Shown piece after piece: positions 10,730 to 54,107 of a DNA stretch of 55,579 bases. The stretch spans positions 1-55,579 of the forward strand of contig JAOUFI010000008.1 of assembly GCA_029858305.1 (NCBI GenBank), written 5' to 3'. Numbering within the stretch: the stretch's first letter is position 1; every line of letters begins with the position of its first letter. A model generated the notes under the pieces. The model saw only the letters and a list, made by a program, of their open reading frames with translations, searched no databases and was not told where the DNA came from. The stretch comes from Candidatus Thorarchaeota archaeon. Lineage in GTDB: Archaea; Asgardarchaeota; Thorarchaeia; Thorarchaeales; Thorarchaeaceae. The position numbers and the translations under genes were made by a program.

Positions 10730-12223
10730 ATGAAACCAGTAGGCAGCATCACGAAGGACTTCCCCTTCCTTGATGAAGATATTCGTAATGAGATTGAATC
10801 TACTATGAATGAGGCACGCGACTACTGGGACTTTATTGAAAAGCTGGGTAAAAAAGCAAGTCATCCCGATTGTTCCGCACTGGTGATATACCTCTCGCTC
10901 TATCATGCTTCAAGAGCCTCACATACTACTGCTGTCAGGTCTATAACTGAAGTCCATCTTGACTTGCCATTGCCCTCCCCCTTTTTCCATGGTGTCGCTG
11001 ATGAAGGGGACAATGCTGAAATCATTCAGAGAGCGCTTGAGCTGATACCGAATCAAGCGATTCGATTCTATCTCATGATGCGATTATATCGTGTATGCGA
11101 AATAGGAAGCCCTGAGGAAACCCGCGCGAAGAAGATGATCGAGAGTCTCCTGAGAAAAGATCAAAGACTCCGACTGCACGCGGCTGACTACTATGGTCAT
11201 TATGGAATGCGCCTCCGCTGGGAAAGCCAACCTGAGAGCGCCCTGTTATATTTGAAAAAGGCTCTGAGACTGGCGAGAAAGTCAGACGACCAATGGCATC
11301 AATCCCTCCTGCTTACTCTGATTGCAGAAGTTGAAGGTCAATATAACAAGCGCCTTGGCCATTATGCGAGAGTAAAGCGATATCTTGGTGAAGCAATAGA
11401 GATCTCAAAGGCGCTTGGAGACCGTAAAAGAATTGCTGATATCCTTCAAACCATGGCTGTTTATGCAGCGAGTCGCGGCGAAATGGATGAGTGTCTTAAG
11501 TGTCAACTTGAATCAGTGAATATCCAAAGCGAATTTGGAAACATCGGCTTTACGTCTGCACACAATCTATCGGGTGTATACGCTGATATTGGAGATGGAA
11601 AGAGCGCACTCGAATGGGCAAAGATGGCTGCCGAGCTTCAACCAGGAGTCTATTCGCATCTTTTGCTGGCAGATATTTATATTCAGCTCGAAAAAATCGA
11701 AGAAGCCGAATCAACCCTTGATGCAGCTAAGGCATTGGTACTAAAAGAGGGTCTTGAATTCGCCTTGGGACGATGGTACGATGTGAATGCAAGGCTTGAA
11801 CGCAAGAGAGGAGACCTAGATTCGGCACTTGATCAACATCAAAGAGCTCTCGAGATTCACGAGAAAGGTAACAGGCATCTAAGAGCAAGAATCTGTTTGA
11901 AGCAGCTAACAGAGATTGAGGTTGAGATGTTTAATCCGACAAAGAAAAATCGAGATATGGGGCACTCTGGACCTTATATGAAAAAATATGAGCAAGACAT
12001 AATAGGAAACGATCTTCCTGGTCATGAAGCGCAACTGTTGCTATTAAAGGCTGAACTTCGCATGAAACAAGGGCGTCATCAGGAGGGTCAACAATTGCTA
12101 GATTCTGTTCTCAAGAGTACTAATTATCCCGCCATAAAATCTCTCCACGAAAAAGCAGTACACACTAGAGAAAAATGGATTAATGCTGGATTCATTTCTC
12201 CTCGCATTCGCAGGAAACGATAA
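10730..12223 (+). CDS. TPR repeat protein
   Basis: A 497-residue helical protein with multiple tetratricopeptide repeats from about residue 130 to 470. Examples are 'ALLYLKKALRLARKSDD', 'CLKCQLESVNIQSEFGN' and 'ALDQHQRALEIHEKGN'. The N-terminal ~60 residues ('MKPVGSITKDFPFLDED') align with the start of the protein encoded at 14512-16002, so the two are paralogues flanking the solute-binding gene. It is presumably a protein-protein interaction scaffold; no enzymatic domain is visible. A TATA-like CATAAAATTG near 10684 puts the transcript start about 15-20 nt before the ATG. Confidence 0.8.
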   Translation: MKPVGSITKDFPFLDEDIRNEIESTMNEARDYWDFIEKLGKKASHPDCSALVIYLSLYHASRASHTTAVRSITEVHLDLPLPSPFFHGVADEGDNAEIIQRALELIPNQAIRFYLMMRLYRVCEIGSPEETRAKKMIESLLRKDQRLRLHAADYYGHYGMRLRWESQPESALLYLKKALRLARKSDDQWHQSLLLTLIAEVEGQYNKRLGHYARVKRYLGEAIEISKALGDRKRIADILQTMAVYAASRGEMDECLKCQLESVNIQSEFGNIGFTSAHNLSGVYADIGDGKSALEWAKMAAELQPGVYSHLLLADIYIQLEKIEEAESTLDAAKALVLKEGLEFALGRWYDVNARLERKRGDLDSALDQHQRALEIHEKGNRHLRARICLKQLTEIEVEMFNPTKKNRDMGHSGPYMKKYEQDIIGNDLPGHEAQLLLLKAELRMKQGRHQEGQQLLDSVLKSTNYPAIKSLHEKAVHTREKWINAGFISPRIRRKR

Positions 12224-12555: not shown

Positions 12556-14376
12556 ATGTTGTGCAAAGGCGGCAGACAAGCACCTGCAATCATATTGACT
12601 CTTATTTTCGTGTTCATGGCGATTTCTCCAGCGTTGATTGTGGATGCTACTGAATTCCCGAGTGATATCAACATTGGACCCTATGTGGATAAGGTTGTCT
12701 TCAAAACGATTGGTGATGATATTCTTGCACTCCAATCAGGAGAAATAGATCTCATCTCTGGGGGTATTCATGAACAAGATTTCCGCACGTTGGTGAATGA
12801 CCCTGATATTGCCTCCTCGATCACACTACGAAATGGCTATGGTCATCTGACCATCAACTGTGAGAAGTATCCTCTAAATATTAGTGCTTTCAGAAGAGCG
12901 TTTGCTTTCGCCTATGACAAGACACGTGTGACAACAGAGCTTTTTCAGGGTCTCTCACAAGAACATGATTCGGTGGTGCCCTACCCGAGCAGTTGGTGTA
13001 TTGAGGCCACTTTACCTTATCACTACTATACTGCTCAGGTTGAGCTTGGTAACCAGCTTCTCGATGATGCCGGCTTTTATATTGATCCCATCACCGGCTA
13101 TAGACTTGCGCCAGATGGTTCCGAGTTTGATATAGTCATTGAGTATTCTTCTTCAGAAATTTCCGTGGGAGTGGCTCTGATTGGAGTAGATGCATTACGT
13201 GCTCTCCATATCAATGCTGACAGCTGTGCCATGGATTTCTATGAAATGATAACACGATTGGATAATCATGGTGATTACGACATCGTCATGTTCGCATATC
13301 AGTTCAGTAGCGATGATGTAGATTGGCTTGCCTATGAATACTGGTCCGAATTTGCTGATGAACCATACAAGAATCCGACACATTTTGCGAATGATACATA
13401 CGACTCATGGCGTGATCAGTTACTTCACAGTACCAGTTATGAGGAAATCTATGAGGCAGCTGCAGCTATGCAATTAATCCTGCATCAAAATGTTCCCATA
13501 TTAGTAGTGTATGAGAACATGTATCTGCAGGTCTATCGAACCGATAAATTCACGGGTCATGTGTATGATGAGGGAAGAAGCATAGCAAGTCATTGGACAT
13601 TGAGAAAAATACACAAGATTGATGGAACCCCTGGTGGAACAGTCAAAGTAGCGACTGGAGAGCCTGAGACGTTCAATGTCTTTCTCTATAGCACTGTTAT
13701 GTCTTCTGAGATTCTACTCAATCTCTGGTCAACACTATATTCGCTAGCGCCTGATATGACACCTTGGCCTTACCTGGCAGAAAATCTACTTATAGAAACT
13801 CACTCAGATAATCCCGAAATCCCTGAAGGTCATACTCGCTTCGTCATCGACATTATCCAGAATGCAACCTGGAGCGATGCGACTCTCTTAACTGCTGAGG
13901 ATGTAGCTTTCACGTTCACATATATGCTTGAGAGTAGTCTATATGGCAATCCATCTGCAACAGATTTAGTTGACTTGATTGCAGCCTATACTCCGACTCC
14001 CTATAGAGTGATACTTGAGTTCAAAACTGAGTCGTATTGGCACTTCTCTAACTTCGCCTATCATAAAATCATACCCAAGCACATCTTCAATGATGTCGAT
14101 GGTATTGGTTACGAAGGCTGGAAAACATGGAACCCAGTTTTTAATCCTGGAGACCCTTATATTACCTCAGGGCCTTTTATATTAACAGACTGGGAGCTTG
14201 GTGAGTTCTACGAGCTCTCAGCAAATCCGAGCTTTTGTTATTACCCCGGAAGACCAACAACCACGGAAACTGGAAATGGAACGCCTTTCAATCCTACATT
14301 GGCTATTGCTGCTGGTGCTGCGAGCGCCGCTGTTGTGATATTCTTTGGCGGCTTTGTCATGTTTCGGGAAAAGTAG
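12556..14376 (+). CDS. Family-5-type solute-binding protein, circularly permuted, membrane-anchored
   Basis: A 606-residue protein with a signal peptide (about 8-30) and a C-terminal transmembrane anchor (about 575-600). It is related to the extracellular peptide/nickel-binding proteins of ABC transporters (DppA/OppA type), but the order of halves is reversed. The mature protein begins with the segment that is normally C-terminal: 'VDKVVFKTI..ILALQSGEIDL', 'AFRRAFAFAYDKTRV', and the late 'MQLILHQNVPILVV' near 310-330. It then continues from about residue 360 with the segment that is normally N-terminal: 'GGTVKVATGEPETFN', 'WSDATLLTAEDVAFTF' near 438, and 'SGPFILTDWELGE' near 538. It is paralogous to the genes at 47463 and 49465. 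No permease or ATPase genes of this transporter type are nearby. The ATG has GAGAGGGA about 8 nt upstream. Confidence 0.85.
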   Translation: MLCKGGRQAPAIILTLIFVFMAISPALIVDATEFPSDINIGPYVDKVVFKTIGDDILALQSGEIDLISGGIHEQDFRTLVNDPDIASSITLRNGYGHLTINCEKYPLNISAFRRAFAFAYDKTRVTTELFQGLSQEHDSVVPYPSSWCIEATLPYHYYTAQVELGNQLLDDAGFYIDPITGYRLAPDGSEFDIVIEYSSSEISVGVALIGVDALRALHINADSCAMDFYEMITRLDNHGDYDIVMFAYQFSSDDVDWLAYEYWSEFADEPYKNPTHFANDTYDSWRDQLLHSTSYEEIYEAAAAMQLILHQNVPILVVYENMYLQVYRTDKFTGHVYDEGRSIASHWTLRKIHKIDGTPGGTVKVATGEPETFNVFLYSTVMSSEILLNLWSTLYSLAPDMTPWPYLAENLLIETHSDNPEIPEGHTRFVIDIIQNATWSDATLLTAEDVAFTFTYMLESSLYGNPSATDLVDLIAAYTPTPYRVILEFKTESYWHFSNFAYHKIIPKHIFNDVDGIGYEGWKTWNPVFNPGDPYITSGPFILTDWELGEFYELSANPSFCYYPGRPTTTETGNGTPFNPTLAIAAGAASAAVVIFFGGFVMFREK

Positions 14377-14511: not shown

Positions 14512-16002
14512 CTAAAATAAGTTGAGTACACGAATTGTCCTTTTCTTTAGGAACGCCAGACCTGGAGAATCAGCCATCTGGAGGGCTTTTTCTATACAAT
14601 CACGCGCCTCTATTTCATGGCCCTGTTTTAATCTAAGTTCTCCTCTTAGGAGCAATTCGATTCCAACAACTCCCGGTAGTTCCATCTCTCGTCCGAATTT
14701 TTCCAACCGTGCATGCCATTTTCCTGCCACTTCATCATCTCGGTTTTTCGAAGTTTTCTCAAATGCCAAAACCTCAGTTTCTGCCAACTTGATCAAGCAT
14801 GAATTAGCTCTATTATATCTGTGGTTTCTCTCGTTTATGATCAATGCTTTTTCAAAACTGTGAAAAGCAGATTGGAAATCTCCTCGGGCGCGTTCTAACA
14901 AGCCATTAATCATATACTCATATGCAATAGTACTTTCAATTCCTGAGTGAAGAATGAAATCTCTTGCCAGGTCCATTTGGTGAGCTGCTTCATCCAATCT
15001 GTTTAGATTAATCAATGACCAAGCAACATCCATATGGCAATACGGCAGCAACAATGGTCTTCTCCCAGCTCCTTCAAGTGCTAGCATTGCCATCTCCAGA
15101 GCTTCGCGGCCGTTTCCAAGTTCATTCAATATGAACGCAGTATCATGCAAATTTATATCTAGATCTTGAGCGACGAGTGTTCGATTTTCAATGATACTAT
15201 AATTAATCTCATTTGCTTCCGAATATTCCGCACGAATGTGGCAAATGACTTGAATCAGACTTTGAAGCGACATCAGTCCTTGAATGTCCCCTAGCGTTTC
15301 GCATATTCCTCTTGCTTTAGTTAAGATGCGTTTTGCTGCTGATGTAGAACCTGGTCCGAATTGAAAGAGTCCAATTAATTCCGCCTTCTGACATAGGAGC
15401 TGACTTTCGTACAATTTGTCATCGAATATCTCTGCGGTTTTGAGTCCCTGAGTGCATGAGTCAAGAGCTCTTGGAATATCTCCCTCCTGTTTTAATCTGA
15501 ATACATGATATAAATGAAATTTGCCAGAATAGCAGTTTAGTGATGGATTCTTCTCAAGCATCTCTTTAATTCGGATCTGGGTCGTTTCTTCCAGAGGATT
15601 ACCAAACCCTGTCATAATAGCTATCCAATATAATTGCAATAGATACAAGAATGTTAACCAATCCTCTTCTACTTGTTCTATTGCCTCCTCCGTTGCCTTG
15701 ATAGCCAGATCCCATCCAGTGTCGTTAGAGGCTTGACGGGAGAGAAGAAAGGGAAGTACGACTCTTCTCTCAGCGTTTGAATTAAGTATATTCAATTCAA
15801 ATTCGCCTAAATTCAGATTATTAGCGTGACGTATTGCCAGCAAGACAATCTCATCACTAGCGTCCTCTGATATAGCAATCCGGCCTAGTGCTTTAGTAAA
15901 TTCAGCATAGTTATGCGATTCTTGAAGAACTTTTTCCAGAACTTCTCTCGTGCTGGTTTCAATAAATGAGAAATCCATGGTTATTGTTCCAAAAGGTTTC
16001 AA
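14512..16002 (-). CDS. TPR repeat protein, paralogue of the 10730 gene
   Basis: About 496 residues from the proposed TTG start at 16002; the frame is open to a start at 16044 (510 residues). I prefer 16002 because 'LKPFGTITMDFSFIE' then aligns with the first residues of the paralogue ('MKPVGSITKDFPFLD'). TPR-type helices occupy the middle and C-terminal parts, e.g. 'ALDSCTQGLKTAEIFDD', 'AFHSFEKALIINERNHR' and 'LRLKQGHEIEARDCIEKAL'. It is a scaffold-like interaction protein without catalytic motifs. It points toward the solute-binding gene at 12556 (convergent), and a remnant of a second solute-binding gene lies just behind its start. This suggests the TPR + solute-binding pair was duplicated and rearranged. 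Confidence 0.8.
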   Translation of the reverse strand: MKPFGTITMDFSFIETSTREVLEKVLQESHNYAEFTKALGRIAISEDASDEIVLLAIRHANNLNLGEFELNILNSNAERRVVLPFLLSRQASNDTGWDLAIKATEEAIEQVEEDWLTFLYLLQLYWIAIMTGFGNPLEETTQIRIKEMLEKNPSLNCYSGKFHLYHVFRLKQEGDIPRALDSCTQGLKTAEIFDDKLYESQLLCQKAELIGLFQFGPGSTSAAKRILTKARGICETLGDIQGLMSLQSLIQVICHIRAEYSEANEINYSIIENRTLVAQDLDINLHDTAFILNELGNGREALEMAMLALEGAGRRPLLLPYCHMDVAWSLINLNRLDEAAHQMDLARDFILHSGIESTIAYEYMINGLLERARGDFQSAFHSFEKALIINERNHRYNRANSCLIKLAETEVLAFEKTSKNRDDEVAGKWHARLEKFGREMELPGVVGIELLLRGELRLKQGHEIEARDCIEKALQMADSPGLAFLKKRTIRVLNLF

Positions 16003-16102
16003 TTTTGCCACACTTTGATTTTCTAAGAGTGAGCATATTGGCATGCTATCTCAAGTATTTTTCGTTTCAGAGTATTATTCTATTTTTAATCTGAACATAA
16101 AG

Positions 16103-41633: not shown

Positions 41634-44581
41634 TGACAACAGCGGAGAAGAATAAGAACACTGGTAGCCTTGAGGCCGAAGCAGATGGTCCTAGGTCCAT
41701 AGTGGTCATCGGAGCCGCTGAGCACAATCTGAAGCATATTGATGTCACTATCCCCAAGAATACATTGACTGTGGTGACCGGTCTCTCCGGATCAGGGAAG
41801 AGTTCCTTGGTCTTCGACACTATCTACAGCGAGGGTCAGAGACGGTTCATCGAGTCACTATCACCCTATGCTCGTCAATTCCTTGGAATGCTTGAAAAAC
41901 CAAAAGTTGACTTAATGACAGGTCTCTCACCATCAATATCTATCGACCAGAAGAGTGTGAGTAGGAATCCCAGAAGTTCAGTTGGTACAATCACAGAAAT
42001 TTACGACTATCTCAGACTTCTCTATGCAAGGGTGGGGGAACCTCACTGTCCACAGTGTAGGAAGAAGATTGAGCCTCAGACATCACAGCAGATTGTCGAC
42101 CATGTACTAAACCTGAAGGAAGGCTCACGCATCATGGTTCTGGCTCCCATTGTCCGCGGCAGAAAGGGAGAGTATAGGAAGGAGTTCAGAGACCTTCTCA
42201 AGAAGGGATTTGTTCGAGCACGTGTCGATGGGAAGCTCACTGAATTAGAAGATGGAATGTCACTTGATAGGTACTTTGAGCACACAATTGAGGTCGTCAT
42301 TGATAGGCTTGCAGTGAAGGAGGCTGACAGAGCTCGCGTTTCTGAGGCTGTGGAGACCGCCCTCAATATGGCTGAGCGGGTTGTTACAATTGTCACTCCA
42401 GATGGCGATATCACTCTCTCAGAGCAGTTTGCATGTGTGGACTGTGGCATCAGTCTTCCAGAGATGGAGCCGCGTATCTTTAGCTGGAACACACCTCAGG
42501 GGGCATGTCCTCACTGTACAGGTATTGGAGTCATCCGAGAGTTCGACCCTGATCTATTCATCACGGATCCGAATCGCTCATTGAATACAGGTCTGTTCGA
42601 GATAGACCAGTGGAAAACCAAGCGTAACTTCACAAAGAGGATTGTTGAGAGTTATGGATTCACCATGGACACTCCGTGGAAAGACATGACTAAGAAGCAG
42701 AGGGATCTCCTGTTGTATGGTTCTGGAAGCAAGAGGTTTGAGGCTACCTGGGAGAGTGATAATCCTGAGTTCGAGGTCCAGTGGAAGGGTACCTTCCAGA
42801 GACCATTCGAGGGATGGGTAGAACGGGCAAAGCGCCTCTACAAGACCACTAAGTCCGACTATGGAAGAAGAATTCTAGAGAAGCACATGTCCTCACAACC
42901 ATGCCCAGTCTGCAATGGAACTCGACTAAGACCAGAATCACTAGCTGTTACTTTCAATGATAAATCAATCACCGATGTCAACGGTCTGTCGATCAAGGCT
43001 CTCCGAGAGTTCTTTGAGAATGCGAAAGTTGAGCCAAGACTCAAACCAGTAGCTGAGCCTATCCTTCGTGAGATCATGGGACGCATTGGATTTCTAGAGG
43101 ATGTCGGGCTTGAGTACCTCACCCTCGATAGGTCCGCGCCTAGTCTTGCTGGGGGTGAGGCACAGCGAATACGTCTGGCAAGTCAGATTGGGTCGAATCT
43201 GGTCGGAGTCACCTACGTATGCGATGAACCCAGTATCGGACTTCATAGTCGTGATAACATTCGACTTCTGAAGTCCCTACTTCGGCTCAGAGACCTCGGG
43301 AATAATGTTCTCGTAGTCGAGCATGATGAGGAGACCATTCGCACAGCGGACTATATTGTTGACCTAGGAATCGGTGCAGGCTCCGAAGGCGGCGAGGTTG
43401 TTGTTGCTGGGACTCTCGATGATGTACTGAAGTCAAAGAAGTCTATCACTGGGAAGTATCTTAGGGGCGATGAAAAGATACCTGTCCCTGAGCACCGAAG
43501 ACAGCCTAATGGCCGGTTCATTGAACTCAGAGGGTGCAAGCACAACAATCTGAAGAATCTGAATATACGAATCCCTCTTGGGATGTTCGTTAGTGTTACT
43601 GGAGTTTCAGGATCTGGAAAATCTTCATTGATTGTAGAGACCCTTCAGAGAGAACTTGCACGACGATTCCATAATGCGGAATCTAAACCTGGGAAGTTTG
43701 ATGAGATTGTGGGTGTCGAGCAGCTAGACAAGGTCATAGTCATTGACCAGAGCCCCATTGGAAGAACACCCAGGAGCAATCCTGCGACATATGTAGGTCT
43801 ATGGTCTCCGTTGAGAGATCTCTTCTCCGGTCTTTCTGAGTCTCAGATTCGAGGTTATAAGCCTGGTCGATTTAGTTTCAATGTTAAGGGTGGTCGCTGT
43901 GAAACATGCAAAGGTGCAGGCGTAGAAGTCATTGAGATGCAGTTCCTCCCTCCTGTACAGGTCACCTGCAGCGAATGTAAGGGCAGGCGGTACAACAGGG
44001 AGACTCTTCAGGTACGATTCAAGGGGAAGAACATTGCAGATATTCTTGACATGCGCATAGATGAGGCTGTGCAGTTCTTTGAGGGTATACCATCAGTTCA
44101 CCGACGTCTTGAGACCTTATGCGAGGTAGGCATGGGATATGTTAAGTTGGGCCAGCCTGCGACAACCTTGTCAGGTGGTGAAGCACAGCGCATCAAGCTG
44201 AGCAAGTACCTCTCACGACCTGCAACGGGTCAGACATTAATCCTGCTAGATGAGCCTACAACTGGATTGCACTTTGCGGACATCAAAAAGCTACTTGAAG
44301 TTCTCCATCGACTAGTCGACTTGGGGAACACTGTTCTCGTTATTGAACATCAATTGGATGTTGTGAAGACTGCGGATTGGGTAATAGACCTCGGTCCTGA
44401 AGGCGGTGATGATGGAGGTTTCCTTGTTGCAGAGGGAACTCCTGAGGATATAGTTGCTTGCAAGGACTCATACACAGGTCAGTATCTTCGGACTCTTCTA
44501 GAGCCTGAAGATTCAAAGAAAGCATCTTCTGTTAAACAAATGGCTGTAGCTATGTCGGAGAAGGGGGGTTCTACGAAATGA
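41633..44581 (+). CDS. uvrA: UvrA, excinuclease ABC subunit A
   Basis: A 982-residue damage-recognition ATPase with two ABC modules. The first Walker A is 'GLSGSGKSS' near 49. The UvrB-binding domain (about 130-265) with 'GRKGEYRKEF' is intact. Zinc modules are 'CVDCG...CPHC', 'CPVCNGTRLRP' and 'CETCKGAG...CSECKG'. Signatures are 'LAGGEAQRIRL' (note A for S) and 'LSGGEAQRIKL'; the second Walker A is 'GVSGSGKSS' near 660. It uses GTG at 41633, overlapping the uvrB stop by 1 bp, and overlaps the second uvrA by ATGA. All features of a functional bacterial-type UvrA are present. Confidence 0.97.
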   Translation: MTTAEKNKNTGSLEAEADGPRSIVVIGAAEHNLKHIDVTIPKNTLTVVTGLSGSGKSSLVFDTIYSEGQRRFIESLSPYARQFLGMLEKPKVDLMTGLSPSISIDQKSVSRNPRSSVGTITEIYDYLRLLYARVGEPHCPQCRKKIEPQTSQQIVDHVLNLKEGSRIMVLAPIVRGRKGEYRKEFRDLLKKGFVRARVDGKLTELEDGMSLDRYFEHTIEVVIDRLAVKEADRARVSEAVETALNMAERVVTIVTPDGDITLSEQFACVDCGISLPEMEPRIFSWNTPQGACPHCTGIGVIREFDPDLFITDPNRSLNTGLFEIDQWKTKRNFTKRIVESYGFTMDTPWKDMTKKQRDLLLYGSGSKRFEATWESDNPEFEVQWKGTFQRPFEGWVERAKRLYKTTKSDYGRRILEKHMSSQPCPVCNGTRLRPESLAVTFNDKSITDVNGLSIKALREFFENAKVEPRLKPVAEPILREIMGRIGFLEDVGLEYLTLDRSAPSLAGGEAQRIRLASQIGSNLVGVTYVCDEPSIGLHSRDNIRLLKSLLRLRDLGNNVLVVEHDEETIRTADYIVDLGIGAGSEGGEVVVAGTLDDVLKSKKSITGKYLRGDEKIPVPEHRRQPNGRFIELRGCKHNNLKNLNIRIPLGMFVSVTGVSGSGKSSLIVETLQRELARRFHNAESKPGKFDEIVGVEQLDKVIVIDQSPIGRTPRSNPATYVGLWSPLRDLFSGLSESQIRGYKPGRFSFNVKGGRCETCKGAGVEVIEMQFLPPVQVTCSECKGRRYNRETLQVRFKGKNIADILDMRIDEAVQFFEGIPSVHRRLETLCEVGMGYVKLGQPATTLSGGEAQRIKLSKYLSRPATGQTLILLDEPTTGLHFADIKKLLEVLHRLVDLGNTVLVIEHQLDVVKTADWVIDLGPEGGDDGGFLVAEGTPEDIVACKDSYTGQYLRTLLEPEDSKKASSVKQMAVAMSEKGGSTK

Positions 44582-47412
44582 CTGGCTATATCCAAGTCCG
44601 GAAGGCTGAGGAACACAACCTCAAGTCAATTGATGTGGACATACCTAGGGACCGCCTTGTGGTAGTAACAGGTCCTAGTGGATCCGGAAAATCGACTCTG
44701 GTCCTGGATACAATCTTTGCAGAAGGACAGCGACGCTATGTCGAGAGTCTCAGCTCCTATGCGCGCAGATTTCTGGGTAGATTGGATAAACCAAAGGTTG
44801 AGAAGATTACAGGTCTTCCTCCTGCAATCTCCATTGAACAGAAGGGGCGTACAAAGAATCCTCGATCAACGGTTTCAACAAGCACCGAGATACATGACTA
44901 TCTCAGACTTCTCTATGCGAATATCGGAGTCGCCCACTGTGTAAAATGTGGTCTTCCAATGGAGCAACTGACTGCTGAGTCTGCGGCACGACTTCTCCTC
45001 GATGAAAACGGTGGACAGCGAATCCATATCTTAGCGCCTGTTGTCTGCGGAGAGGTCGGAAAGCATGAGGAATGCCTAGAGGGTCTTCACAAGAATGGTT
45101 TTGTCAGAGTCCGCGTCGATGGAGAAGTAATAGACATAGACCAGGTCGATCTTGATGCCAGGAAGAAGCATGACATTGAGGTCGTCATAGACAGGCTTGA
45201 GCTAAACCAGAAGAATCGTGAACGACTGATTGGTTCCCTAGAGACCGCCCTCGAGACTGGCGATGGTAGGGCAATAGTTGCGCGAGAGGGAATTGATGAT
45301 CTTACCTTCGCTGAGCAGTTGATGTGTCCGAAATGCGGGATACAATATGAGAAGCTAGGTCCGAAGGCATTCTCATACAATAGACCTGATGGTGCATGTC
45401 CAGTCTGCAATGGTCTTGGCGTGACAATGTCAATAGACTCTGAACTCATGATTCCAGATAGGAACATGACAATCCATGAGATAAGTCGGTATCTCAATGC
45501 AGGTGAGCGTACCTGGTGGAATGACAGACTTATTGCCTTGGGAAAGATAATCGGATTCAGTCTCGAGACCCCCTTCAGCGAGCTTAACGAGTCTCAGGTT
45601 GAGACTCTGATGTGGGGTCGTCCAGAATACACACTCCACTATATTCAGCAGGGCGAAACATCGACATGGGAAATTACTAGGAAATGGTATGGTCTCGTTC
45701 CTTGGCTTGAGAAAATGTTTGATCGAGGAAAAGCTAGCGAAAAGATGTACTACCGCTGGTGGGCCCAACGTATTGCAAACGAGTTCTCTCGAAAGACCAC
45801 TTGTGAAGCCTGCGGTGGAAGAAAGCTCAAGCCAGAAAGTCTTGCAGTAACTGTGGCAGGGAAGCCTATCGATGAGATTACTTCAATGACTATTGAAGGT
45901 GCAGCCGAGTTCTTCAAGAGCATCCCACTCACTGAAAGAGAGTTCAAGATAGCAGAGCTTGTTCTCAAAGAGATACGAGCGCGTCTCAACTTCCTCCTTG
46001 CAGTTGGCCTTGATTATCTTAGCCTTGATAGAGCATCCATGACCCTTTCTGGGGGTGAGAGTCAGAGAATCCGTTTGGCAACCCAGATTGGCTCTGCGCT
46101 CACTGGAGTACTTTATTGTCTAGATGAACCCAGTATTGGCCTTCACCCTCGAGATATTGGCAAGCTCATTGATACCTTTTACCACCTGAGGTCTCTTGGA
46201 AACACTGTTGTTGTTATCGAGCATGATCGAGATACGATTACGGCGGCTGATTATTTGATAGACCTCGGACCGCTTGCTGGTGTAAATGGTGGTCAACTAG
46301 TGGCGGAAGGTCCTCCTGCGAAAGTGCTTGCTGATTCCAAGTCCTTGACGGCTCAATACCTTGCAGGAAAGAAACGGATACCGATACCTGTAGAGAGAAG
46401 GATTGGCAATGGGCAAAAGATAACAATCCATGGGGCTCGAGCTAATAATCTCAAGAATATTGATGTTGACTTCCCACTTGGTGAACTCATCTGTGTGACA
46501 GGCGTATCAGGCGCTGGCAAGAGCTCTCTAACTCACGAGATACTCTACAAGGCTTTGGCTCAGAAAGTGAACAAGGCAAGTACTGTTCCAGGACCCTATG
46601 ACTCAATTGAGGGAATAGAGCACATTGATCGGATGATTCTTGTCGACCAGTCTCCCATAGGGAGGACTCCCCGTAGCAATCCTGCGACCTATACAAAGAC
46701 ATTCGGAGAGATTCGTAATCTATTCGCATTGATGCCTGAGGCAAAGGCACGAGGATTTGGTCCAGGTCGTTTTAGCTTCAACACTCGAGATGGGAGATGT
46801 GAGAAGTGCAAGGGCAGTGGTGTTCTCCAGGTCGAGATGCATTTTATGTCTGATGTCTTTATGACCTGTGATGTATGCAAGGGCAATAGATTCGATAGAG
46901 AGACCCTTGAGGTCAAATATAAGGGAAAGAATATCACACAGGTTCTTGCCTTGACAATCGATGAGGCACTTGAGTTCTTTGCTGATATTCCCAAAATCGC
47001 TGAGAAACTCGGAACCCTGGTTGATGTTGGTCTTGGCTATCTTCAGCTCGGACAACCAGCAACAACTCTCAGCGGAGGTGAAGCTCAGCGCATGAAGCTG
47101 GCTGCTGAACTATCGCGCAAATCCACAGGGAACACGTTCTACTTAATGGATGAGCCCACGACTGGCCTTTCTGCATCGGACGTGCATGTCCTTCTTGGCG
47201 TTGTGAACCGCCTTGTTGATGCTGGGAACACCGTGGTGATTGTTGAACACAATCTGGAAGTCGTAAAGACTGCTGATTTTGTCATAGACCTCGGTCCAGA
47301 TGGCGGTGATGGTGGTGGCGAAGTCGTCGCAGTAGGAACACCAGAAAATGTGACGAAGGTGAAGAGATCGTACACTGGGAAACATCTGAAGTCTGTTCTT
47401 GCTTTATCCTAA
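44578..47412 (+). CDS. Second UvrA paralogue
   Basis: A 944-residue UvrA, clearly a paralogue of the preceding gene. The Walker A motifs are 'GPSGSGKST' (near 36) and 'GVSGAGKSS' (near 640). Zinc knuckles are 'CPKCG...CPVC', 'CEACGGRKLKP' and 'CEKCKGSG...CDVCKG'. Signatures are 'LSGGESQRIRL' and 'LSGGEAQRMKL', with 'DEPTTGL' Walker B. Unlike the short UvrA2 class of some bacteria, it retains a region at the UvrB-binding position, but 'GRKGE' is replaced by 'GEVGKHEE'. The UvrB contact may therefore differ. It starts inside the uvrA stop (ATGA), so the two are made together and could form a heterodimer (inference). Confidence 0.95.
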   Translation: MTGYIQVRKAEEHNLKSIDVDIPRDRLVVVTGPSGSGKSTLVLDTIFAEGQRRYVESLSSYARRFLGRLDKPKVEKITGLPPAISIEQKGRTKNPRSTVSTSTEIHDYLRLLYANIGVAHCVKCGLPMEQLTAESAARLLLDENGGQRIHILAPVVCGEVGKHEECLEGLHKNGFVRVRVDGEVIDIDQVDLDARKKHDIEVVIDRLELNQKNRERLIGSLETALETGDGRAIVAREGIDDLTFAEQLMCPKCGIQYEKLGPKAFSYNRPDGACPVCNGLGVTMSIDSELMIPDRNMTIHEISRYLNAGERTWWNDRLIALGKIIGFSLETPFSELNESQVETLMWGRPEYTLHYIQQGETSTWEITRKWYGLVPWLEKMFDRGKASEKMYYRWWAQRIANEFSRKTTCEACGGRKLKPESLAVTVAGKPIDEITSMTIEGAAEFFKSIPLTEREFKIAELVLKEIRARLNFLLAVGLDYLSLDRASMTLSGGESQRIRLATQIGSALTGVLYCLDEPSIGLHPRDIGKLIDTFYHLRSLGNTVVVIEHDRDTITAADYLIDLGPLAGVNGGQLVAEGPPAKVLADSKSLTAQYLAGKKRIPIPVERRIGNGQKITIHGARANNLKNIDVDFPLGELICVTGVSGAGKSSLTHEILYKALAQKVNKASTVPGPYDSIEGIEHIDRMILVDQSPIGRTPRSNPATYTKTFGEIRNLFALMPEAKARGFGPGRFSFNTRDGRCEKCKGSGVLQVEMHFMSDVFMTCDVCKGNRFDRETLEVKYKGKNITQVLALTIDEALEFFADIPKIAEKLGTLVDVGLGYLQLGQPATTLSGGEAQRMKLAAELSRKSTGNTFYLMDEPTTGLSASDVHVLLGVVNRLVDAGNTVVIVEHNLEVVKTADFVIDLGPDGGDGGGEVVAVGTPENVTKVKRSYTGKHLKSVLALS

Positions 47413-47462: not shown

Positions 47463-49343
47463 TCAAAGTAGTATAGACTCACCGATTTCTTTTGCCTTTT
47501 GCCGACTTTCTTTAGCTGGCTTAATGACTACATTATAGAGTACTTGCTGCAGCAGTATGGCAGATGCTCCGATGATGAATCCGAAGAAAAAGCGCAATAG
47601 CGGTGATGGAGGCGGTGGCGGTGGCGGTGGCGGTCTTGGATTTATATCTGCTCTGTAGGCAAAGGTTGGATTGAATGTGAGTTCATAGAACTCACCTAAC
47701 TCGAAATCAGTTAGAATGAATGGTCCTGAGGTTACAAGAGGTTCTTTCGGATCAAATACTGGGTTCCAGTCATCCCAGCCAGCATACCCAATTCCGGATA
47801 CATTATTGAAGATGTGTAGAGGTATAATGTATTGAAATGCGAAATGGTTGAAGTGCCAGTATGACTCCGAGCTAAATTCAAAGACAACTCTATAGTTTGT
47901 AGGAGCGTATGCCGCCTCAAGTGCGACCAGACCTGGTTCGACCTGGTTTCCAGCTGCCCTACTCTCAAGGAGATACGTGAATGTGAACGCCACATCATTC
48001 GCAGTTAACGGAGTTCCATCGCTCCAGGTTGCATTTTGAATGATATCAATGGTGAACCGGGTGTGACCAACTGGTACTTCAGGATTATCCACGTGAGTTT
48101 CTGTGATGAGTTTCTTGGCTATGTATGGCCATGGTCTGCCTTCTGGATCGTAAACATAGAGTGAAGGCAAGATTTCATTCAAGATAGCATGAGCGGAGGC
48201 TGAGTTTGATGTAAAGATGTTGAAGCTGTCAGGTTCTTCAGCGATAGCTACTGAAACCGTACCTCCAAAGGTGCTGTCAAGCGCATGTATCTTTCTCATG
48301 GTCCAGGAACCCGAGATGTATTGACCAAAGTCAGGAACATGACCAGTGAACTTGTCAATCCTATATGCTTGGCAGTAGGTGTTATCATATGTGACAAGCA
48401 GCGGGACCTGTTCATGGAGGATTAATTGCATCCATCTTGATGCGTTATACACCTCTTCATATGTTGTGCCAGATAGGAATTGAGGTAGGCAGCTGTCGAA
48501 GGTCGCATTCCTGAAGTTACTTGGATTCAGGTCCTCTCTGTCAGTATTTGCTGAATAATACATATCAACAAGTTGGGTAATATCGTTACCATAGAAACTG
48601 TACCCGAAGATGGCCATATCAAAGACTCCATGCTGATTTAATCTCGAGGTGAGTTCTACGTAATGAGCTGGTTTTACAACCGCAGGGATATCGAGTGATA
48701 ATAGAGCATCAACACCAATTCTTGGTATAACAGAACCATAGCAACATAATACATCTGCGAAATACTCAATCTCGATAGGATCCATTGTTTGCCCCTTATA
48801 GGTTCTCCAACCATCCGGACCATAGGGGAAGAGACCCGACATATTGAGCAGTACATTCCCAATCTCTGGTTGAGCAGTATAGTAGTGCCATGGCAATTCA
48901 TCTTCAATGCACCAACCATTGGGATATGGCACAACTGAGTCATGTTCTCGCGACCATCCATCCAAAGGCACAGCTGTCACGCGAGTCTTATCGAAGGCAA
49001 ATGCAAAGGCTCTTCTCAGAGCAGTCTCGTTCAATGGTGCATCACGACAGTTAATTGTGATGCAACCATAACCATTTCGTGTTGCAGTGTATACGTTGAT
49101 ATCAGGATCCAAGTTAAGGGCAGCGTAATGAACAGGGTCAAAGAAACTCGAGTCCATTTCAATCTCACCAGCCTGCATTGCTAGCACCCTCTGATCTTGA
49201 CCTGAAATCACTTTGTATACAACTTTGTCTATATACGGTCCAGTGTTCAAATCACCCGGCACATTCGTTGCTGATGCGAAACAACCAATAAACGATAGAA
49301 GAAACAGAAGATGAATAATTAAGGCAGCTAAAAATACTCTCAA
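47463..49343 (-). CDS. Family-5-type solute-binding protein, circularly permuted, with proline linker
   Basis: About 626 residues from TTG 49343; the frame reaches 49382, but the signal peptide ('FLAALIIHLLFLLSF') and alignment with the 49465 paralogue favour the internal start. The order of halves is swapped as in the two paralogues: 'DKVVYKVISGQDQRVLAMQAGEIEMD' type sequence first, and 'GGTVSVAIAEEPDSFNIF' about 60% in, followed by 'WSDGTPLTANDVAFTF' and 'SGPFILTDFELGE'. A linker with nine consecutive prolines leads to a C-terminal transmembrane helix and a basic tail. It would bind peptides, sugars or metals outside the cell. No permease nearby. Convergent with the uvr operon; downstream of its paralogue. 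Confidence 0.85.
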   Translation of the reverse strand: MRVFLAALIIHLLFLLSFIGCFASATNVPGDLNTGPYIDKVVYKVISGQDQRVLAMQAGEIEMDSSFFDPVHYAALNLDPDINVYTATRNGYGCITINCRDAPLNETALRRAFAFAFDKTRVTAVPLDGWSREHDSVVPYPNGWCIEDELPWHYYTAQPEIGNVLLNMSGLFPYGPDGWRTYKGQTMDPIEIEYFADVLCCYGSVIPRIGVDALLSLDIPAVVKPAHYVELTSRLNQHGVFDMAIFGYSFYGNDITQLVDMYYSANTDREDLNPSNFRNATFDSCLPQFLSGTTYEEVYNASRWMQLILHEQVPLLVTYDNTYCQAYRIDKFTGHVPDFGQYISGSWTMRKIHALDSTFGGTVSVAIAEEPDSFNIFTSNSASAHAILNEILPSLYVYDPEGRPWPYIAKKLITETHVDNPEVPVGHTRFTIDIIQNATWSDGTPLTANDVAFTFTYLLESRAAGNQVEPGLVALEAAYAPTNYRVVFEFSSESYWHFNHFAFQYIIPLHIFNNVSGIGYAGWDDWNPVFDPKEPLVTSGPFILTDFELGEFYELTFNPTFAYRADINPRPPPPPPPPPSPLLRFFFGFIIGASAILLQQVLYNVVIKPAKESRQKAKEIGESILL

Positions 49344-49464
49344 TTCTCTTAATGCACTCACCCTCGCACTAGTGATACGCAAACATACCTAAAACGCCTT
49401 TCTATTACGATGATTGATTTGCAGAAGATGATCGTCGTAATATGTTGTATAGTTAATTAATTAA

Positions 49465-51315
49465 TTAACTTTCTGTCCCCTTGTAGCGAAATATCTGAAT
49501 AACCATAGTCAGAATAACGATGATTGAGCCTCCAGCAATGATCGTTGATAAAGTGATAAGGGGACTTTCATCTGAACTTGTGGTTGTGGTTGTAGTTGTA
49601 TTTGGAGGCGTCGTTCGAGTGGGAAAGTACGCAAATCCATAATTCGCACTGATCTCATAGGTTTCACCATCCTCAAAATCAGTGAGGATGAATGGACCAC
49701 AATTCACGTTGGGCTCTGCTGGGTCAAATTCTGGGTTCCACGTGTTCCAGCCTGCATAACCAATTCCCGTTTCATTATTGAAAATATCCCTGGGAATTAT
49801 TGGCTGATAGGCGAAATGATTAAAGTGCCAATATGATTCAGTGTTAAATTCGAAAATAACTCTGTAATTTGAAAGTGCATACACAGCTGAAAGAGAATCA
49901 AGATCTGTCGCAGCCCAATTTCCATACGCCCCGCTCTCCAAGATGTATGTGAATGTAAACGCAACATCTTGTGCAGTTAGAGGTGCATCATCACTCCAAG
50001 TTGCGTTCTGAATGAGGTCGATTGTGAATCGAGTATGTCCATTAGGTACGTCTGAATTATCCGCATGAGTTTCTGTAATAAGATGCTCTGCAAGATATGG
50101 CCATGGATTGAGATCTGGACCATGGGAATATAGCGAAGGCCAGAGGTTATCCAGGATCGCTGCGGAATAGGTTGAGTTAGTGGTAAAAATGTTGAAGCTG
50201 TCAGGTTCTTGAGCGAGAGCTACTGTAACCGTACCTCCAAGGGTACCATCAAACGCATGTATCTTTCTCATGGTCCAAGGACCACTGATGTATCTACCAA
50301 GGTCCTCTACATGACCCGTGAATTTGTCATTTCTATATGCCTGAAGGTAGATGTTCTCGTAGACCACGAGTCTTGGTACCTGTTCGTGAAGTATCCTCTG
50401 CATCCATGATGATGCATTATAGATCTCCTCATAGGTTGTACCATTGAGAAGCTGTCGTCTACAACCATCATAGGTAGCATTCCTGAAGTTGGTTGGATTC
50501 TGGTAGGGTATGTCAGCATACTCTGACCAGTACTCGTAAGCAAGCCAGTCGATATCATTGTTGTAAAAGTTCACGGCATAATAGACCATGTCGTAGCTAC
50601 TGTGATTGTTCAACCTTGATATGTAGTCATTGAAATCAGAAGCGCAAGTTCGAGCATTGATATAAAGTGCTTTTAGAGCATCAACGCCAATTTGCGCTGT
50701 TCCACCAGAAACCTCACATGAGCATGATGGGTATTCAATCTGGATGTCGAATGCTTGACCACGGTATGTTCTATAACCGTCATCACCAAACGGGAACAAT
50801 CCAGAATTATTGAGAAGGGCATTACCAATTTCTACTTGAGCTGTGTAGTAATGGGGTGTCAATTGCTCTTCAATGCACCAGCCATTTGGTATAGGCACAA
50901 GAGAATCGTGCTCTTGTGAAAAACCGTCCATGATCTCAGCGGCTACTCTTGTCTTATCGAACGCAAACGCAAAAGCCTGTCTCAGGACAGTTTCATTCAA
51001 CGGCCAATCGCGACAGTTGATTGTGATATGTCCATAGCCATTTCTTACTGCGCTGAAGTAGGAAATATCTCCATCTGTAGCGAGTGTTGGAAGATGCACT
51101 GGATCGAAGAAACTCGTATCCATTTCTATCTCACCAGCCTGAAGGGCAAGAATCCGTTGGTCTTGGTTGCTAATGACTTTGTAAATGATTCGATCAACAT
51201 AAGGGCCTACATTTAGATCATTGGGTATAATTGTCAACGCTGTTATGGGATATGGATACAACGTTAATGATAGCAGCACAGATAGAGCCAAAACGGCGAT
51301 TACGCGTTCTCTCAA
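49465..51315 (-). CDS. Family-5-type solute-binding protein, circularly permuted
   Basis: A 616-residue protein with a signal peptide (about 3-25, start TTG 51315), a swapped two-part binding domain, a Thr-rich linker and a C-terminal transmembrane anchor (about 590-610). 'VDRIIYKVISNQDQRILALQAGEI' type sequence opens the mature protein; 'VLRQAFAFAFDKTRV' and 'MQRILHEQVPRLVV' follow; then the normally N-terminal part begins at 'GGTVTVALAQEPDSFNIF' (about residue 365) and ends with 'CGPFILTDFEDGE'. It is close to the 47463 protein. The 122-bp gap between them (measured from the preferred start of the downstream copy) and the same orientation suggest tandem duplication. Confidence 0.86.
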   Translation of the reverse strand: MRERVIAVLALSVLLSLTLYPYPITALTIIPNDLNVGPYVDRIIYKVISNQDQRILALQAGEIEMDTSFFDPVHLPTLATDGDISYFSAVRNGYGHITINCRDWPLNETVLRQAFAFAFDKTRVAAEIMDGFSQEHDSLVPIPNGWCIEEQLTPHYYTAQVEIGNALLNNSGLFPFGDDGYRTYRGQAFDIQIEYPSCSCEVSGGTAQIGVDALKALYINARTCASDFNDYISRLNNHSSYDMVYYAVNFYNNDIDWLAYEYWSEYADIPYQNPTNFRNATYDGCRRQLLNGTTYEEIYNASSWMQRILHEQVPRLVVYENIYLQAYRNDKFTGHVEDLGRYISGPWTMRKIHAFDGTLGGTVTVALAQEPDSFNIFTTNSTYSAAILDNLWPSLYSHGPDLNPWPYLAEHLITETHADNSDVPNGHTRFTIDLIQNATWSDDAPLTAQDVAFTFTYILESGAYGNWAATDLDSLSAVYALSNYRVIFEFNTESYWHFNHFAYQPIIPRDIFNNETGIGYAGWNTWNPEFDPAEPNVNCGPFILTDFEDGETYEISANYGFAYFPTRTTPPNTTTTTTTSSDESPLITLSTIIAGGSIIVILTMVIQIFRYKGTES

Positions 51316-52295: not shown

Positions 52296-54107
52296 ATGTC
52301 AAACCTTGCGGCCTTAGTTAATGACCTCCCTGATCAGCCAGGAGTTTATCTCTGGAAGAATAAGAAGGGGGACATTCTATACATTGGCAAGGCAAAGATG
52401 CTGCGGCGGCGAGTAGGTTCCTATATGCGTAAGACAGGTCTCTATCGTAGAACCTGGGAGATGATGCAAGAGGCTGTGGATCTTGAGACCATAATCACAA
52501 ATACCGAGCGTGAAGCCTTGGTTCTTGAGCAGACACTTATCAAAAAACATCAACCTCGATATAATATTGCATTGAAGGATGACCGCAGACATGCATGGGT
52601 GCGAGTTGATAAAAATGATATCATTCCAACCTTTGAGGTCACAAGGGAAGCTGTGAAGAATGGAGCAATCTACTTCGGTCCTTATGGCAGTACAAAACGT
52701 CTAGATAGATTTCTGGATACAATACGAAAGATACTCCCTGTCGCTACTTGTAAAGAACCTTGGAAGGTAAAGCGTGCATGCATGGACTATCACCTTGAAC
52801 GATGCACAGGTCCATGTGAAAAGCACATTTCGAGGGAGGAGTATTTTTCACTTGTTGAGCAGATGTGCATGTATTTGGACGGTAGATCAGAGGAGCTGAC
52901 GAAGTCAATTGATGAAAAGATGAGGAAAGCCTCTGCTGACATGCAATTTGAACTTGCGGCAGAACTCCGTGATCGGCTCACTGATATTGAGATTATAATG
53001 AGTAAGCAGAAAGTTGTGGAGTTCGAGGGAATAAATCGTGATGTGCTTGGTATTTCCCGAACCGAGCAGGCTGCTCTCATTGAGTTGCTGATTATTAGGA
53101 ATGGTCGTCTAATTGGTCAAGATAATTTCTATTTTGAAGTAGACCTCGAGATAAAAGATTCAGAAGTACTCACTGCGTATATTGAACAGTTCTATTTTGA
53201 AATTCCGAGACTACCAGACGAGATAGTCGTTCCCTGTATGATACCTGATATGGAACAGCTGAGTATATGGTTGAGTGAGAACAATGGTCATAGTGTCAAG
53301 ATTACACAGGCACAGGATACTCGAACTCAGGAACTTGTTGAGATGGCGAATAAGAATGCACACCGCGCTCTTAGAAAAATGCTCATTCTTGGTTCTAGTG
53401 AAGATGAGATTGTGAATGATGGCGTCAAGGAGCTGAAAGAAGCTCTAGGGCTCAGCCAAGCACCAATGCACATCGAAGGTTTTGACATTGCCAATATTCA
53501 AGGTACAGACCCAACTGGCTCCTGCGTAGTTTTCCAAAATGGCGAACCCGATAACAGGAGGTATCGGATGTTCCGAGTGAGAAGTAAAGAAAGTCCTGAT
53601 GATTATGCAATGATGAGAGAGGTTGTTTATCGTCGTTACAGAGGTTTACTTGAGAAGGGATCATCTCTTCCTGACCTGATTTTGATTGACGGCGGTAAAG
53701 GGCAGCTAAGTAGTGCCTTTGATGCATTGAAAGAACTTGGTCTTGATTACCTGCAAGTAGCAGCAGTTGCAAAGAAGGAAGAACGAATTTTCACTCGCAC
53801 TAATCTTGATGGTGTGCTTCTTGATTTTGGGTCTGAAGGTCTACATCTTATTCAAAATATTCGTGATGAGGCACATAGGTTTGCTCAACGATATCATCAT
53901 AAACTTCGTGAGAAGCGATTCACAGGTTCGATACTAGAGGAAGCTCCTGGAATCGGACCAAAGCGTCGAAAAGCACTCATTGATGCTTTTGGCAGCTATG
54001 ATGGAGTTATGAATGCGACACTTGAGGAGTTATCAAAGGTAGAAAGCATGTCGCCTTCTTCAGCAGAAAGACTTTACAATTGGTTGCACTCTCAATATTC
54101 AGAATAG
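52296..54107 (+). CDS. uvrC: UvrC, excinuclease ABC subunit C
   Basis: A 603-residue dual-incision nuclease of nucleotide excision repair. The N-terminal GIY-YIG nuclease ('GVYLW...ILYIGKAK', about 17-36) makes the 3' cut. A cysteine cluster 'CKEPWKVKRACMDYHLERC' plus 'CTGPC' (about 151-173) matches the iron-sulfur site of UvrC. A UVR domain ('MQFELAAELRDRL', about 210-222) binds UvrB. The RNase H-like 5' nuclease domain begins 'HIEGFDIANIQGTD' with the usual Asp residues and 'LILIDGGKGQL'. C-terminal HhH motifs ('PGIGPKRRKAL') bind DNA. Complete length; completes the UvrABC system with the operon at 39651. Confidence 0.97.
   Translation: MSNLAALVNDLPDQPGVYLWKNKKGDILYIGKAKMLRRRVGSYMRKTGLYRRTWEMMQEAVDLETIITNTEREALVLEQTLIKKHQPRYNIALKDDRRHAWVRVDKNDIIPTFEVTREAVKNGAIYFGPYGSTKRLDRFLDTIRKILPVATCKEPWKVKRACMDYHLERCTGPCEKHISREEYFSLVEQMCMYLDGRSEELTKSIDEKMRKASADMQFELAAELRDRLTDIEIIMSKQKVVEFEGINRDVLGISRTEQAALIELLIIRNGRLIGQDNFYFEVDLEIKDSEVLTAYIEQFYFEIPRLPDEIVVPCMIPDMEQLSIWLSENNGHSVKITQAQDTRTQELVEMANKNAHRALRKMLILGSSEDEIVNDGVKELKEALGLSQAPMHIEGFDIANIQGTDPTGSCVVFQNGEPDNRRYRMFRVRSKESPDDYAMMREVVYRRYRGLLEKGSSLPDLILIDGGKGQLSSAFDALKELGLDYLQVAAVAKKEERIFTRTNLDGVLLDFGSEGLHLIQNIRDEAHRFAQRYHHKLREKRFTGSILEEAPGIGPKRRKALIDAFGSYDGVMNATLEELSKVESMSPSSAERLYNWLHSQYSE

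Follow-up and report, generated by a model that had tools for sequence, protein, structure and literature searches.

Organization of the locus

The window, that is, the whole 55,579-nt stretch of Candidatus Thorarchaeota DNA analyzed here, carries three genes for family-5 solute-binding proteins in which the two halves of the chain have changed places (Table 1). In the protein encoded at 12556–14376, the N-terminal segment (residues 1–32), in which no lipobox was seen, is followed by the half that is C-terminal in canonical members, starting with GPYVDKVVFK. The linker across the old termini, which measures 24–34 residues among permuted relatives, leads into the canonical N-terminal half, which opens with GGTVKVA, contains the W-S-D...L-T-A-E-D-V-A-F-T segment and closes with SGPFILTDWELGEFYELSANPSFCYYPGRP. 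The GGTV segment, proposed in the original prediction as the junction between the swapped parts, does lie at the beginning of the canonical N-terminal half, at about residue 360.

The 12556 gene is flanked by genes for two repeat-rich proteins (10730–12223, forward strand; 14512–16044, reverse strand) that look TPR-like by eye and share an N-terminal KPxGxITxDFxF motif. Elsewhere in the window (39651–47412 and 52296–54107), bacterial-type uvrB, uvrA, a second uvrA-like gene and uvrC occur together in this one archaeal contig, and the two permuted paralogues lie between these uvr genes, on the other strand.

Table 1. Features of the three permuted window proteins and of protease-fused relatives at other loci (L074–L077; coordinates within each locus).
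Feature	Position	Strand	Evidence
Permuted family-5 solute-binding protein, 606 aa, ATG start	12556..14376	+	ORF, Pfam, AF2 model
N-terminal signal peptide / hydrophobic segment, residues 1–32	12556..12651	+	hydropathy, sequence, AF2 helix 8–23
Canonical C-terminal half, first in chain, residues 42–335	12679..13560	+	Pfam 146–363; AppA 212–480
Linker, old C terminus to old N terminus, residues 336–359	13561..13632	+	
Canonical N-terminal half, last in chain, residues 360–567	13633..14256	+	AppA 21–212; Pfam 11–147
Thr-rich spacer and C-terminal transmembrane anchor, helix 580–605	14257..14373	+	AF2, hydropathy
Permuted paralogue, 639 aa, same order and C-terminal anchor	47463..49382	-	Pfam, hydropathy
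Permuted paralogue, 616 aa, same order and C-terminal anchor	49465..51315	-	Pfam, hydropathy
Permuted binding protein, subtilase and long tail with weak Ig/PKD-like matches	L074:3930-11720, L075:5184-12113		
Permuted binding protein, subtilase and long tail with weak Ig/PKD-like matches	L076:6876-14435, L077:4798-12558		

The halves of the binding protein are reversed around a single cut site

Pfam matched SBP_bac_5 (PF00496) to each of the three window proteins as two stretches above the cut-off, with E-values of 5.9e-39, 3.8e-33 and 9.7e-37. In the 12556–14376 protein, profile positions 146–363 fell on residues 42–265 (window 12679–13350) and positions 11–147 came after them, on window 13816–14259. 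The same reversal was found at 47463–49382 (146–251 first, then 15–140) and at 49465–51315 (146–363 first, then 10–139). Because each half alone exceeded the Pfam cut-off in all three proteins, a chance match can be excluded. The swap that the original prediction had read from motifs, with the second canonical part first and the first part last in this protein and in both paralogues, was thus borne out by a domain-order alignment that could have returned the canonical order. Including relatives, the canonical topology (N half before C half) was reversed in the three window proteins and in 74 permuted ORFs.

Alignment of the 12556–14376 protein with the solved AppA of Bacillus subtilis (1xoc) paired residues 360–567 with AppA 21–212 and residues 42–305 with AppA 212–480, which places the junction of the two pieces at a single point of the normal protein. 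The single cut site is one loop, at about residue 210 of AppA or 242 of the OppA precursor; in normal members this loop joins the ...NPxYW strand to PYLDxVxFK, and it is here that the permuted chain starts. A family profile built from 61 relatives also abutted at the cut when compared with 1xoc (370–571 on AppA 17–209; 49–330 on AppA 212–487). Among the matches listed, nearly all other solved family-5 proteins aligned with this profile as two stretches, and E. coli DppA and OppA were matched solely as two swapped stretches. When the E. coli sequences were doubled in tandem, OppA gave one continuous match, profile 51–574 over residues 218–732, and DppA gave a continuous match of profile 49–481 across the join.

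The converse re-ordering was applied to 74 members of the family, which were cut at the linker and rejoined in the normal order. None of the 74 proteins as found had a single domain match spanning more than 400 positions, against 41 of the 74 in canonical order, and the mean best score rose from 58 to 95 bits. We conclude that the 12556–14376 ORF and both paralogues are true circular permutations of a family-5 solute-binding protein. They are homologous to the DppA–OppA–AppA group (cluster C) over the whole length of both halves and differ from it in the reversed halves, the new termini at the AppA ~210 loop and the linked old termini. The permuted protein belongs to SBP_bac_5 by homology, not by topology.

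The predicted model matches family-5 binding proteins and has a C-terminal hydrophobic helix

AlphaFold2 (AF2), run with the 61-sequence alignment, predicted a compact model for the 12556–14376 protein (pLDDT 89.1, pTM 0.82); values below 50 were confined to the signal region at the N terminus and to the spacer that precedes the C-terminal helix. A Foldseek search of the PDB with this model, which could have revealed an unrelated fold, returned family-5 binding proteins as all of its best 50 matches. These extended over about 300 columns, roughly half of the chain, with a TM score of about 0.40, a result that a permuted chain would be expected to give with an aligner bound to sequence order. 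The C-terminal membrane anchor that had been proposed was recovered both by a hydropathy scan and as a helix in the model. A simple hydropathy scan detected a hydrophobic stretch close to the C terminus in 70 of 74 permuted proteins versus 8 of 37 canonical relatives, and the transmembrane anchor is attached elsewhere on the fold than in SBP_bac_5.

Transporter context and probable function

At least two complete importers of the Dpp/Opp type are encoded in the source genome. The one on contig C181 has a canonical binding protein, while that on contig C194 has a permuted one, encoded after a pair of DppB/DppC-type permease genes and accompanied by two divergent oligo_HPY ATPase genes of the DppD/F type. 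Two BPD_transp_1 permeases together with oligo_HPY ATPases, the hallmark of a Dpp/Opp operon, accompany the C194 copy and many relatives, and in these operons the permuted copy stands in for the usual binding protein; its partner permeases and ATPases are also of the Dpp/Opp type. In 20 inspected neighborhoods, 12 of 24 permuted genes lay at most 400 nt downstream of a same-strand permease, a fraction that should not be taken as unbiased, since the neighborhoods were chosen mainly from high-scoring members. No permease was found near the three window copies, either in their neighborhood or by a permease search of the genome, so these genes are orphans.

The DppC-type permeases of operons with a permuted binding protein are 516–568 residues long, a length due to an insert between the first transmembrane helix and the BPD_transp_1 domain. 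This large extracellular insert is carried by L173:3130-4701 (on C194), L154:7686-9260 and others, and is lacking in the DppC-type permease beside the canonical binding protein of the source genome. The prediction for it, of moderate confidence, is a beta-sandwich, and its closest folds in the PDB are carbohydrate-binding modules; the membrane part of the insert-bearing permease matched DppC and OppC in a fold search.

Considering both sequence and context, the protein is in all likelihood a naturally circularly permuted binding protein of the DppA/OppA type (family 5, cluster C) with a putative importer role. It would be exported and tethered by its C-terminal helix, its two lobes would close in the usual way on a solute outside the cell, and the solute would be handed to a DppBCDF-type importer. 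Orphan binding proteins that feed shared importers are common in bacteria. Our guess is that the window copies probably serve the C194 importer as extra receptors, which would widen its substrate range.

A less likely alternative is that the window copies have lost their transporter role and work at the cell surface as adhesins or receptors, for instance by retaining peptides or glycans for enzymes located there. Their distance from any permease fits such a role, as do relatives whose ORFs of 1000–2600 aa combine the permuted domain with subtilisin-like proteases and Ig-like domains; a subtilase (PF00082) was present in all four scanned permuted ORFs of 2300–2600 aa, the rest being Ig/PKD-like scraps. 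However, the other permuted copy of this genome sits in a full DppBCDF-type operon, the bacterial orphan receptors mentioned above offer a ready parallel, and the window copies match the operon-type copies in anchor and length.

As to the ligand, the subtilisin-like protease fused to the permuted domain in several giant relatives may point to peptides. The Asp that pairs with the peptide amino group in DppA and OppA (D436 and D445, respectively, in precursor numbering) is not conserved: among 61 permuted proteins, this column held Asp once and otherwise S, Y, N, G or a gap. In the family-profile alignment, the nonapeptide-binding AppA also seems to lack it. The nearest solved relatives include AppA as well as mannoside and chitooligosaccharide binders. 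The mannoside-binding proteins TM1223 and TM1226 and the Vibrio chitooligosaccharide-binding proteins gave the best PDB profile matches after AppA and were among the best by fold; they have the canonical order and share about 20% identity over half of the permuted chain, which gives no basis for assigning a ligand. The neighboring genes were housekeeping-like only (sugar-phosphate isomerase, HAD hydrolase, alpha/beta hydrolase, unknown ORFs) and gave no pointer to the ligand either.

We also put forward, quite tentatively, a broader reading in which this lineage would have rebuilt a DppABCDF-type importer, with a once-permuted receptor, a new tether, a DppC beta-sandwich that docks the receptor or hands over the ligand, and paralogues redeployed as orphan receptors and as ligand-binding heads for giant proteases at the surface. 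The ligand might then be an oligosaccharide or glycopeptide, in keeping with the lost peptide-amine Asp and with some of the closest solved homologues.

Distribution and origin of the permutation

A profile search of 228 genomes of the phylum (E ≤ 1e-50) found the permuted family in 56 of them: 44 of the 47 genomes of the window's own family, 7 of a second family (f9) and 5 of a third (f20). The matches in f9 and f20 run collinearly through the permuted order. One named relative with a permuted protein is Candidatus Thorarchaeota HM6_B34 (one locus, from a single-protein contig scan). A wider search covered 393 genomes from 186 genera, by arithmetic at least 165 of them outside the phylum, and listed no match outside the phylum at E ≤ 1e-60 with the best three candidates per genome scored.

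In maximum-likelihood trees built with the order restored, all permuted proteins fell on one side of one branch (support 100/99), and with the C half alone they formed one clade (support 99). The N half alone required two label changes, the permuted set not being strictly on one side of a branch. Since the permuted proteins form one clade in the combined trees, the swap probably happened once; on the simplest reading of these phylogenies, it was one event that either preceded the split of the three families or later spread between them. Among canonical proteins, the best two-stretch matches to the permuted profile came from four proteins of related genomes (L038, L041, L048 and L051), which resemble the permuted proteins in having a signal peptide and a C-terminal anchor and differ from them in their canonical order and separate clade. 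Three permuted binding-protein genes stand in tandem at L078:10242-18717 and again at L024:2156-7854, an arrangement that points to local expansion.

Natural circular permutations have been documented in saposins and swaposins, DNA methyltransferases and transhydrogenases (PMC3320104), which have other folds and represent the same kind of event, with the same two candidate routes. We found no description of one in the solute-binding proteins of ABC importers in the open-licence literature. A paper on Asgard metagenome-assembled genomes mentions Opp/Dpp genes, in passages that say nothing of permutation (PMC8072921).

The likelier of the two routes is a tandem duplication in frame, after which the outer halves were lost, because a short linker joins the old ends and ORFs with binding proteins in tandem are present in the lineage. 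One such ORF, L054:3693-6806 (contig C1 of genome G036; 1038 aa), consists of two canonical binding proteins in tandem with partly N-masked ends, and could plausibly represent the kind of precursor from which duplication leads to a permutation. We rejected it as an actual intermediate, as it joins one canonical binding protein to a second and contains runs of X; no duplication intermediate of 1.5–2 copies was found, this canonical–canonical ORF with masked ends being the sole tandem ORF seen.

The other route, fission and fusion, would have joined the C half and the N half of two different binding proteins. It is a recognized origin of permuted proteins (PMC3320104), and the two changes in the N-half tree would be compatible with it, but we consider it improbable here: the C-half and combined trees keep the permuted proteins together, the N-half data do not demand a second change, and no free-standing half genes were noticed among the ORFs fetched, save at contig or locus ends. 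An assembly or gene-calling artefact, conceivable for a fragmented draft of 205 contigs, is extremely unlikely given three intact paralogues on one contig and another on C194, and was rejected because dozens of independent genomes, among them the single-contig genomes G034 and G105, carry relatives that are full-length and collinear.

Discussion

The permuted binding proteins provide a traceable natural case of circular permutation, apparently of single origin, clade-wide and expanded, and their unpermuted cousins sit in the same genomes. They open to experiment the question of whether folding, hinge motion, membrane tethering and permease docking are constrained by the order in which the halves occur. 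Engineered circular permutants of binding proteins are already used as biosensors, and the new termini of this family could be taken over as they are in sensor design. The family also illustrates that automatic domain-family annotation can hide permuted proteins, because a domain match alone does not reveal the order of its parts. For Asgard biology, the finding adds a nutrient-uptake system met in only a few families of the genomes searched. One whole archaeal family uses a rearranged binding protein whose fold is apparently kept, which speaks to the tolerance of a major protein fold.
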